Assembly (NCBI GenBank): GCA_902778115.1
Contig: CACYWG010000001.1
Span: 62,001-126,000 of the forward strand
From: Oscillospiraceae bacterium
GTDB taxonomy: Bacteria; Bacillota; Clostridia; Oscillospirales; Oscillospiraceae
Direction: 5' to 3'
Length of the DNA stretch: 64,000 nucleotides
Below the pieces are notes generated by a model. It did no database searches. It had not been told where the DNA came from and saw only the letters and a program-made list of their open reading frames with translations. Within the stretch, counting starts at the first letter, position 1. Each line of letters starts with the position of its first letter. This document shows positions 51,644 through 55,087 of the stretch, piece after piece. Position numbers and translations under genes: made by a program.

Positions 51644-51680
51644 TTGCAGGAAAGCATCATTGCTTTCCTGCAACTTTTTT
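51644..51680. terminator. Bidirectional terminator between obgE and SASP
   Basis: TTGCAGGAAAGCA (51644-51656) and TGCTTTCCTGCAA (51661-51673) pair around TCAT, followed by a T run. Confidence 0.88.
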
Positions 51681-51690
51681 GCCCAAAGGC

Positions 51691-51891
51691 TTACTTCATG
51701 CCGTTTTCGTAGGACTCGATCATCTTTTTGACCATCTGGCCGCCAACGGAACCGGCCTGACGGCTGGTGAGCTCGCCGTTGTAGCCGTTCTTCAGATTGA
51801 CGCCGACTTCGGAAGCGGCTTCCATCTTGAACTTGTCCATAGCCTCGCGAGCGGAGGGATTGACCAGATGATTGCTGTTACGAGTAGACAT
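51691..51891 (-). CDS. Alpha/beta-type small acid-soluble spore protein
   Basis: SASPs coat and protect spore DNA and are broken down at germination by Gpr protease. The 66-residue protein has the family pattern: a NPSAREAMDKFK start, a Gpr site region ASEVGVNLKNGYNGELTSRQAGSVGG, and MVKKMIESYE. The ATG at 51891 is nine bases from the RBS (AAGGAG); a preceding ATG at 51900 overlaps it. A weak sigma-G-like element may lie upstream. Confidence 0.93.
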   Translation of the reverse strand: MSTRNSNHLVNPSAREAMDKFKMEAASEVGVNLKNGYNGELTSRQAGSVGGQMVKKMIESYENGMK

Positions 51892-52042: not shown

Positions 52043-52072
52043 TTGACATAAAGGGGTAAGATGCCGTATCAT
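52043..52072 (+). promoter_or_regulatory. Promoter with a dyad before the degenerate ATPase gene
   Basis: TTGACA (52043-52048) and TATCAT (52067-52072) are 18 bases apart. TATCAT and ATGATA (52080-52085) form a dyad that covers the -10 and likely start, which could be an operator. Confidence 0.65.
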
Positions 52073-52126: not shown

Positions 52127-54484
52127 ATGGGTAAGCATGAAGCACCTGCACCCATAAAGAAGAGATCGTCCGGTTCGCCCAAGCATGCGGCTTCTGTGCC
52201 GTCCAAGGGCGGATTTCGTCTGAATGCGGAGGATTGGAAGCTGCCGAAGCTTCCCAAGCTTTCTCTGCCGAAGTTTGATAAAAAATCATATGAGGACGAG
52301 GATGATTTTGAAGAAGAATCCGGCCTTCCCGCGGAAGATGAAGATGTGAAGATCTTCCCGGATCCTTCGGCAAAAGCAAAGCATGCAGAATCCTCACATC
52401 CTTTTGAGACAGAAGCGGAGGAGCCAAAGCCGGAATTCGCTGCCGCCGAAGCCCCGGTATCTGACGACGACGCGGACGACGATGACACCGAGGAGGAATA
52501 TGACGACGAGGAAGAGGAAGACGAAACTCCGGAACCCCGGAAGATCTTTCAGCTTCCCAAGCCCGACTGGACAGCCTTGCGCGGCTTTTTCGAGCAGCTG
52601 GCCGCCTACGGCGTTTCCGATGCGGCCGGTGCGCCGAAACACAGACGCAGCTATTCCTTCAGCCGCTATCATGTTCTGATCACCGCCGGCTCGGCGCTGC
52701 TGTTCTTCCTGCTATGGATGCTGCCGACCCGTGGAGCCCTTCGTTTTGCCCTGTATCTGGTTCCGTTTTTGTTTCTCGGCGCCTATACAGTGCTTGATGC
52801 GGTGGGAGAGATTCTGGACCGCGTGATACCCGGACGCAGTCTGCTGATTTCCGTTGCCGGAATTGGCATGCTTTGCCTCGGACAGCCGAGAGTGGCCGTG
52901 TTCATTATGCTGATGCACCGCGTTTTCCTGCTTGTCGAGGCCTATTTATTTGAAAAGAAATCGGCTGAGCTGGATCGTCTGAACGAAATGATCCCTTCTT
53001 CGGCCGTTGCAGAAACGGAAGACGGCCTGGAGAAAAAGGATCCGCGAGATATGGTCCCGGGCGATATCCTCTTTGTTCCCGCCGGTGAACTGGTCGCGCT
53101 GGACGGCGTTGTTGTGGAGGGCATCAGCTCGCTGGACAGCTCCGCACTCTGCGGCGACGGGGCGAGCCTCGACGTCGGTGTAAACAGCCGCGTCTTTGCC
53201 GGCTGCCGCAATCTGACCAATCCGCTGCGCGTCCGCGTGACGAACGCTTATACGGATTCGACGGTCTATCGCCTTGTTTCCCGTGCGCGCGATGCGGCGA
53301 ACAGCCGCCCGTCCCGCGCGGGTCTGCTGGAAACGATCCTGTCTTGGCTGCCGCTGGGGCTTGCCGTGCTTGGCGTACTGGTCGGTGTGATCGCGTCCTT
53401 GGCTACCGGCGCCTGGCGCACCTGGCTGTATCGCGGACTGCTGCTGATCGCGCTCGGCGGCTGCGGCGATGTTCTGCTGTCTGCGCGTATGGCATATTTT
53501 ACCGGCGTGGTGGATACGCTGAAAGACGGCATCTCTTTCTTGAATGCAGATGCGATTGACCGTTTTGCCGGTTCTGATATGATGATCTTCTCCAAAACCG
53601 GGACGATCACTGAAGGAAAGTACTCGGTCGTTGCCGTGTATCCGGTCGATTATGAGGAAAAAGACCTTCTGACCATCGCCGCCCTTGCCGAGTGCCAGTC
53701 CAAGCATCCGATCGCTGTCGCTCTGCGCGAGGCCTGCGGCATCGATATTCATCACCGCAGCGACATCACTCTTCTGGAAGAGACCCCCGGCAGAGGCATC
53801 CACACGCTCTTCGGCGGGCGAAACGTTTATGTCGGGAACTCCTCCCTGCTTCTGGATCACAATATCGTGTTTGACGTCCCCTCTCATAAGGGAACGGTGA
53901 TCCATGTCGCTGTGGACAACAAGTACGCCGGCTGCATCGTCCTGAACGACCGCGTCAGGGACGCCGCTTTTGATGCGATCGAGGAGCTGCGCCTGCGCGG
54001 TATTCGTGCTGCGGTCATGCTGACCGGCGACGTTCGTTCCATGGCGCGCCCGATCGCTTCCTCGCTGAGCTTTGACATGGTCAAATGTGAGCTTTCCAAT
54101 GAATCCAAGCTCGAGGCACTGAATTATCTGCGCGAAAGCAAGGGCAACAGCGCCGCCATCAGCTATGTGAGCAGCAAGGACGAGGATCTTGAGCTTTTGC
54201 AGGCTGCTGATATCGGCGTCGGGTTCAATGCGCTGACGGAGTACAAGCTCATCGGCGCGGCCTCTGTGCTGCTGATGGGGAACAAGATCTTCCAGATCCC
54301 GCAGGCACTGTTCCGCGCCAAGAGGATTACCGTTGCGGCGCTCCTGTCTGCGATCATTATGCTGGGACTTGAACTCTTGCTTCTGGTTCTCGGCCTGCTC
54401 GGCGGTGTCAGCGTATGGGTCGCTATGCTGCTGATCCTGCTGGGGCGGATCGGAACGCTGGCATACAGTATTTATTTCAAGTAA
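52127..54484 (+). CDS. Degenerate P-type ATPase with acidic N-terminal region
   Basis: The 785-residue membrane protein has the outline of a heavy-metal P-type ATPase: about eight transmembrane segments (six near 183-275 and 405-450, two at about 733-775), an actuator-like domain (VPGDILFVPAGELVALDGVVVEG) and a phosphorylation-nucleotide domain with SKHP (525-528) and TGD (633-635). But key residues are lost. The phosphorylated aspartate of DKTGT is Ser489 (SKTGT), TGES is CGDG (342-345), GDGxND is SSKDED (682-687), and the membrane CPC-like site reads GCGD (445-448). An acidic, probably disordered region of about 175 residues precedes the membrane part. It cannot cycle as a normal pump, so it may be a pseudoenzyme. 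GGGAGG precedes the ATG, and a HAD phosphatase gene follows directly. Confidence 0.8.
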   Translation: MGKHEAPAPIKKRSSGSPKHAASVPSKGGFRLNAEDWKLPKLPKLSLPKFDKKSYEDEDDFEEESGLPAEDEDVKIFPDPSAKAKHAESSHPFETEAEEPKPEFAAAEAPVSDDDADDDDTEEEYDDEEEEDETPEPRKIFQLPKPDWTALRGFFEQLAAYGVSDAAGAPKHRRSYSFSRYHVLITAGSALLFFLLWMLPTRGALRFALYLVPFLFLGAYTVLDAVGEILDRVIPGRSLLISVAGIGMLCLGQPRVAVFIMLMHRVFLLVEAYLFEKKSAELDRLNEMIPSSAVAETEDGLEKKDPRDMVPGDILFVPAGELVALDGVVVEGISSLDSSALCGDGASLDVGVNSRVFAGCRNLTNPLRVRVTNAYTDSTVYRLVSRARDAANSRPSRAGLLETILSWLPLGLAVLGVLVGVIASLATGAWRTWLYRGLLLIALGGCGDVLLSARMAYFTGVVDTLKDGISFLNADAIDRFAGSDMMIFSKTGTITEGKYSVVAVYPVDYEEKDLLTIAALAECQSKHPIAVALREACGIDIHHRSDITLLEETPGRGIHTLFGGRNVYVGNSSLLLDHNIVFDVPSHKGTVIHVAVDNKYAGCIVLNDRVRDAAFDAIEELRLRGIRAAVMLTGDVRSMARPIASSLSFDMVKCELSNESKLEALNYLRESKGNSAAISYVSSKDEDLELLQAADIGVGFNALTEYKLIGAASVLLMGNKIFQIPQALFRAKRITVAALLSAIIMLGLELLLLVLGLLGGVSVWVAMLLILLGRIGTLAYSIYFK

Positions 54485-55045
54485 ATGAACGTATACGATT
54501 TCGATCAAACCGTCTATTATCCCGACAGCTCCTATCATTTTTTCCTTTGGTGTCTGAAAAGATACCCCGCTGCAGTGCTTCCGGTCATCCCCAAAAGCCT
54601 GCTGCTTGCGCTTCAATATAAGCGCGGCAAAATTGGCGCCAAGGTCTTAAAGCAGCAATTGTTCTCCTTTTTGAAGCGCCTGAAAGATGTTGACCGTGAA
54701 GTGAAGGATTATTGGAATTCGCACCGTCAAAACATGCAGGATTGGTACATGGAGCAGAAGCGGGACGACGATCTAATCATTTCCGCTTCGCCGGAGTTTC
54801 TGCTCGCTCCGATTGCGGAGGAACTCGGAGTTCGCCTCATCGCGACGAAGATGGATCCGCATACCGGTAAAATACTCGGGGAAAACTGCCATGACAGCGA
54901 AAAGGTCCTTCGCTTTCGGGCCGAATATCCCGGCGAAACGATCGATGAATTCTATTCCGATTCTCTTTCCGATACACCGCTGGCCGAATTGGCCGATCGG
55001 TCGTTTCTGGTAAAAAAAGAGTCCCTGACACCCTGGCCGAAATAA
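54485..55045 (+). CDS. HAD-IB type phosphatase
   Basis: The 186-residue protein has an intact HAD motif I YDFDQTVYY (DxDxT) and a SerB-like layout, with IISASPEF as the motif II region and a later SDSLSDTPLAE containing the motif IV aspartates. It should act as a phosphatase of the phosphoserine-phosphatase class, but no substrate is evident. Its ATG begins at the base after the stop of the degenerate ATPase gene, so translation is probably coupled. A strong terminator follows. Confidence 0.82.
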   Translation: MNVYDFDQTVYYPDSSYHFFLWCLKRYPAAVLPVIPKSLLLALQYKRGKIGAKVLKQQLFSFLKRLKDVDREVKDYWNSHRQNMQDWYMEQKRDDDLIISASPEFLLAPIAEELGVRLIATKMDPHTGKILGENCHDSEKVLRFRAEYPGETIDEFYSDSLSDTPLAELADRSFLVKKESLTPWPK

Positions 55046-55053
55046 ACAAAGCG

Positions 55054-55087
55054 ACAGCCGCTGCTCTGCGAGCAGCGGCTGTTTTTA
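55054..55087 (+). terminator. Terminator after the HAD phosphatase
   Basis: ACAGCCGCTGCTC (55054-55066) pairs with GAGCAGCGGCTGT (55070-55082) around TGC, followed by TTTTA. Confidence 0.88.

Follow-up and report, generated by a model that had tools for sequence, protein, structure and literature searches.

A P1B-type ATPase that has lost catalytic and metal-site residues is conserved across a genus of gut bacteria

The window (the whole 64,000-nucleotide stretch analysed here, from an Oscillospiraceae contig) encodes a protein with the predicted fold of a metal-exporting P-type ATPase in which the residues of the pumping cycle have been replaced, and across its genus of gut bacteria this protein is very probably conserved for something other than pumping. 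A sequence-only reading had proposed as much for this single copy; the proposal is strongly supported here by genus-wide retention, purifying selection, losses scattered among species and an intact sister gene elsewhere. We lean towards a more specific reading, in which a metal pump was reworked within the genus into a membrane regulator or scaffold that responds to nucleotide and does not pump. The gene and the parts of it discussed below are as follows.

52127–54484 (+): degenerate P1B-type P-ATPase (pseudo-pump), 785 aa, from Pfam and the predicted model
52127–52642 (+): N-terminal region, residues 1–172, MGKHEAP and then an acidic disordered stretch, from pLDDT, composition and motif
53150–53161 (+): CGDG (residue 342) replacing the actuator-domain TGE(S) loop, by alignment
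53459–53470 (+): GCGD (residue 445) replacing the CPC metal site in M4, by alignment
53591–53605 (+): SKTGT replacing DKTGT, with the Ser489 codon TCC at 53591–53593, by alignment
53627–53962 (+): nucleotide-binding (N) domain, residues 501–612 with approximate bounds, the best-conserved part, from conservation
53705–53710 (+): HP motif (H527, P528), kept, with SKHP at 525, by alignment
54023–54031 (+): TGD (T633, D635), kept, with LTGD at 632, by alignment
54107–54109 (+): Lys661, lysine of HAD motif III, present in 31/31, by alignment
54170–54187 (+): SSKDED (residue 682) replacing GDGxND, by alignment

The reading frame is uninterrupted over its 785 codons, as the sequence-only reading had it. 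An alternative in-frame ATG lies at 52061; position 52127 was preferred as the start because a GGGAGGG Shine-Dalgarno-like stretch lies just 5′ of it and because the resulting N-terminus, MGKHEAP, fits the M-x-K-H-x-A-P pattern common to most of the genus. Two Pfam domains scored above cut-off (PF00122 E1-E2_ATPase, 5.8e-23; PF00702 HAD Hydrolase, 3.7e-10), the general P-type ATPase profile TIGR01494 gave 109.6 bits against a cut-off of 62.3, and the A, P, N and membrane domains are all present as judged by Pfam and the predicted fold. The profile for P1B heavy-metal ATPases, TIGR01525, gave 268.7 bits, below its cut-off of 346.25 (for comparison, 545.7 bits for the sister pump described below from genus g125 and 543.1 for the ZntA of the same genome), and TIGR01512 gave 229.9 bits against a cut-off of 313.5. 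By sequence, the nearest solved structures are P1B copper and zinc pumps. An AlphaFold model built from a 26-sequence genus alignment (mean pLDDT 77) superposed on CopA (PDB 7r0g) with a TM score of 0.84 by target length, in agreement with the earlier view that the fold survives. Sequence and predicted fold together place the protein among the P1B (Zn/Cd-type) ATPases, and on the same grounds it belongs to the P-type superfamily while lacking the catalytic residues and falling below the P1B cut-off.

In the established P-type mechanism, the aspartate of DKTGT accepts the phosphate, the first aspartate of GDGxND is a Mg ligand, TGE is needed for normal dephosphorylation, and CPC together with the Lys/Asp pair forms the metal path. 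In the window copy the motif FSKTGT begins at residue 488, which places Ser489 at the acceptor position, a serine common to this copy, G019, G023 and RGIG7997. The TGE glutamate is gone with the change to CGDG, CPC in M4 has become GCGD, and the first aspartate of GDGxND is Ser683, with the last aspartate kept. All four replacements, including the TCC codon, lie where the sequence-only reading had put them; to that list the alignment adds the P1B-2 metal pair, with the M5 lysine changed to glutamate and the M6 aspartate to a hydrophobic residue (Ile or Leu by alignment). Because Ser489 replaces the acceptor, formation of an aspartyl-phosphate should be impossible in this copy, as had been claimed, and because acceptor, Mg ligand, TGE and CPC/Lys/Asp are all lost, the protein should be unable to pump through the known cycle. 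The HP and GxG of the N domain (H527-P528, G555-R-G), the KT of KTGT, TGD and Lys661 are kept, the survival of TGD and KHP having been noted before, so that these residues could plausibly bind ATP or some other phosphorylated ligand. At the other end of the protein, residues 1–147 and 163–172 have pLDDT below 50 in the model and were read as disordered, and residues 51–145 are 42% Asp plus Glu. This bears out the acidic N-terminal region described earlier, and the long extension was seen solely in the window's four-species subclade.

Homologues were sought in 60 relatives, the presence count referring to the 37 same-genus genomes searched first. A homologue was extracted from 34 of these 37, and the three without one (G007, G009, G028) are each 57–68% complete. 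The homologues are ~25–86% identical to the window protein and have open frames without internal stops in all 34 genomes. A single-protein contig scan further showed homologues in three named metagenome-assembled genomes (a Clostridia bin, Ruminococcaceae RUG14654 and Oscillospiraceae RGIG7997) at about 85%, 78% and 61% identity. None of the 35 tabulated homologues retains the full catalytic and metal residue set, and 16 intact relatives retain every tested site wherever covered. At the phosphorylated-aspartate position the 35 members carry Asp (10), Gly (10), Ser (6), Asn (4), Glu (4) or Thr (1); the TGE glutamate persists in two and a full CPC in one (G008), which also keeps the acceptor Asp, the M5 lysine and, in its GDAEND, the Asn and the two Asp. 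Some members, such as G008 or the ten with a retained Asp, may therefore be capable of partial catalysis. Other positions hardly vary, with the Lys of KTGT kept in 34/35 and its Thr in 35/35, the HP histidine in 34/35 and the TGD aspartate in 34/35. The motif III lysine, invariant in 31/31, shows no changes on the tree, against at least five at the phosphorylated Asp. As aligned, then, the family is marked by a mix of losses with no one fixed residue at the Asp position. The relatives are degenerate, and serine is shared by the window copy and at least three of them; an expectation that serine would be the common state did not hold, the residue differing by species.

Two trivial accounts were considered and set aside. 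A lone decayed copy is ruled out by the degenerate homologues in relatives: the tabulated congeners are all degenerate, and the intact orthologue lies in another genus. Sequencing error at the Ser codon, or chance, is ruled out by the same Ser and closely similar replacements in three further genomes, at about 86%, 79% and 61% identity and with dN/dS of about 0.08–0.26. The assemblies are drafts, and those of the named close relatives are metagenome-assembled, yet the same residues recur in independent assemblies, the three named ones included, and we give next to no credence to an artefact of sequencing or assembly at the catalytic codons.

Profile-search score failed to separate pseudo-pumps from ordinary ZntA. 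Outside the genus, the top profile matches inspected were intact ATPases, among them L104 (G179, from another genus of the same family), which is otherwise ZntA-like and intact with the A loop TGYD in place of TGES; degenerate members with lower profile scores may occur in other genera. Within the family, L041 (G015) and L042 (G010) have in addition shed the A domain and are 564 and 562 aa long.

Purifying selection was evident from pairwise dN/dS of 0.07–0.26 in close pairs, a rough range with synonymous sites near saturation (pS about 0.5–0.7). The values resemble those of the neighbouring HAD, CYTH and LRR genes and exceed those of obgE and uvrA. To see where constraint falls, mean identity by domain, with resampled ranges, was compared between 32 pseudo-pumps and 36 intact ZntA-type pumps. 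N-domain identity is about the same in both sets (0.49 in pseudo-pumps, 0.50 in intact ZntAs), whereas identity in the pseudo-pumps falls to 0.31 against 0.70 in M3–M4 and to 0.35 against 0.63 in the A domain. The ratio of N to M3–M4 identity is accordingly 1.59 in pseudo-pumps and 0.71 in intact pumps, with non-overlapping resampled ranges (1.51–1.68 and 0.69–0.75). In intact ZntAs conservation is lowest in the N domain and joint highest in M3–M4; in pseudo-pumps it is highest in the N domain, and the membrane part diverges most among members (0.26–0.31 identity). Among members of the window's subclade, N-domain identity is 94%, with a dN of 0.008 between the window's genome and G019. Constraint thus runs opposite to that in working pumps, with the N domain held and the membrane metal region not. 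Retention across species, purifying selection and loss of catalytic residues, as expected of a conserved pseudoenzyme family, were all found.

The tree groups the pseudo-pumps as a single clade (support 100/100) whose sister is an intact P1B ATPase of genus g125, in the same family (100/99); both stand apart from the ordinary intact ZntA-like paralogue that the genus also carries, and the window's own genome has such an intact pump besides the pseudo-pump. This resolution was obtained after the longest rows were removed and the g125 sister added, an earlier tree with long rows having grouped weakly. The g125 pump (G228, G161), like the window gene, lies directly upstream of an orthologous HAD-IB gene. 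It differs in being intact at all catalytic and metal sites in G228 (the G161 fragment stops short of the A loop), in its His-rich N-terminus, in its score to TIGR01525 and in the ArsR-family gene directly upstream; an ArsR gene still adjoins the degenerate gene in G003, G016, G029 and G026. We infer that the family descends from an efflux ATPase of the P1B (Zn/Cd) type whose gene formed an operon with arsR and the HAD gene, in the order arsR-ATPase-HAD, and that pump function would have been abandoned in the common ancestor of the genus, after which species lost differing catalytic and metal-binding residues. Conversion of the pump of such an operon in the genus ancestor would be the simplest history.

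The surroundings of the gene in the window contain the following elements.

51644–51673 (+): terminator-like hairpin 3′ of obgE, separating obgE from the pseudo-pump operon, by consensus match
52043–52072 (+): promoter-like TTGACA-18-TATCAT, 11/12 matches, by consensus match only
54485–55045 (+): HAD-IB phosphatase-like gene with intact DxDxT, its first base immediately following the stop codon of the pseudo-pump
55060–55079 (+): terminator-like hairpin 3′ of the HAD gene, closing the two-gene unit, by consensus match

The HAD-IB gene is the usual neighbour of the pseudo-pump across the genus, with a nitroreductase-family gene between the two in several species, and to judge from its DxDxT its product is probably an active phosphatase. 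The HAD gene was found in 36/201 family genomes, and at the 30 loci inspected an ATPase stands beside it only in this genus and in g125. In G063, of the same genus, it follows obgE and the ATPase is elsewhere. An obligate partnership is ruled out by this split and by the HAD genes of other genera that have no adjoining ATPase. Between obgE and the pseudo-pump, at 51691–51891 (−), lies a gene for an alpha/beta-type small acid-soluble spore protein (Pfam SASP, 4.3e-29), absent from the list of larger reading frames, which suggests a spore-forming host.

The genus carries a second degenerate P1B-ATPase, encoded on the window's contig ~47 kb downstream of the pseudo-pump (G000:C1:163622-165256; L055:7623-9257). 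Alike in P1B origin and in degraded catalytic motifs, it differs from the pseudo-pump in its 545-aa length (close to that of L041 and L042), its lack of an A domain, its motifs (DKNGIF, TED and YAN replacing the usual ones, with TED for TGD), its invariant M5 Lys and M6 Asp, and its place on the tree, where it forms a separate clade. It is present in 27/37 same-genus genomes, with no close match outside the genus among the genomes searched, and the gene is flanked by class II aldolase-like and tyrosine-recombinase-like genes. A contig-edge P-type ATPase fragment in the window's own genome (L003; G000:C34:1-2304), with DFSCAL for CPC and HS for HP, is possibly another unusual pump.

Selection preserves the N domain, along with the P-domain residues that hold nucleotide and phosphate, in a membrane-anchored protein. 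On the reading we favour, the protein would bind a nucleotide, ATP or one like it, with no hydrolysis by way of a phosphoenzyme, and would use the occupied or empty state to regulate a partner or keep it at the membrane; the adjoining HAD-IB phosphatase would be the first candidate for that partner. The presence in one genus of two separate degenerate P1B families, neither with a close match outside it in the genomes searched, raises a different idea, namely that the window protein works only in a complex, regulating or completing the second degenerate protein or the ordinary ZntA. The second family retains the M5 Lys and M6 Asp that the window copy has lost, and an intact ZntA-like pump is at hand in the same genome; however, the two degenerate genes sit in separate operons, and G023 (95% complete), G026 (94%) and G029 (90%) carry the first family with no match to the second, so that we consider such a dependence unlikely. 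A joint complex of both pseudo-pumps that senses ATP and signals through the adjoining HAD phosphatase is a long shot.

Transport by an altered membrane path, passive or driven by an unusual ATP cycle, would fit the retained membrane helices and overall fold of the model and the low dN/dS of the membrane segments. It is hard to square with a membrane part that is the most divergent of all, where almost nothing in M3–M4 besides W430 and G468 is invariant, or with the loss of CPC, M5 Lys and M6 Asp in many combinations, unlike one new substrate site, and it seems to us decidedly improbable. Piecemeal catalytic losses, each site having changed several times on the tree, could also mark a functionless gene in slow decay; against this stand the open frames in 34 genomes, the low dN/dS and N-domain dN given above, and the promoter-like and ribosome sites, and we regard decay as highly improbable. 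A nucleotide-responsive regulator or scaffold derived from a pump is the account we prefer.

Among known systems, the P1B-2 Zn/Cd/Pb ATPases (ZntA/CadA; PDB 4umv, 7qbz) share sequence family, domain order, fold and tree ancestry with the window protein, which differs from them in lacking the phosphorylation, dephosphorylation and metal-site residues and in scoring below both P1B-related cut-offs. The closest published parallel found, from an unrelated lineage, is human TMEM94/ERMA, a P-type-like protein without TGES for which no ATPase activity was found and which binds AMPPCP with micromolar affinity; it is a ten-helix eukaryotic protein that keeps its proposed phosphorylation site, Asp417 (PMC12134183). 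Its status is disputed, PMC13322241 calling it an ER Mg2+ ATPase, and it serves as an earlier example of a P-type fold possibly without pump activity. In the open-access papers searched, we found no bacterial P-type ATPase family that has turned pseudoenzyme as a lineage. Annotation pipelines may label such proteins cation pumps, which calls for caution. Because the intact sister, intermediates in partial decay and the fully degenerate copy all exist today, the family allows one to ask what remains of a P-type ATPase without pumping, and whether the N domain alone can serve as an ATP sensor.
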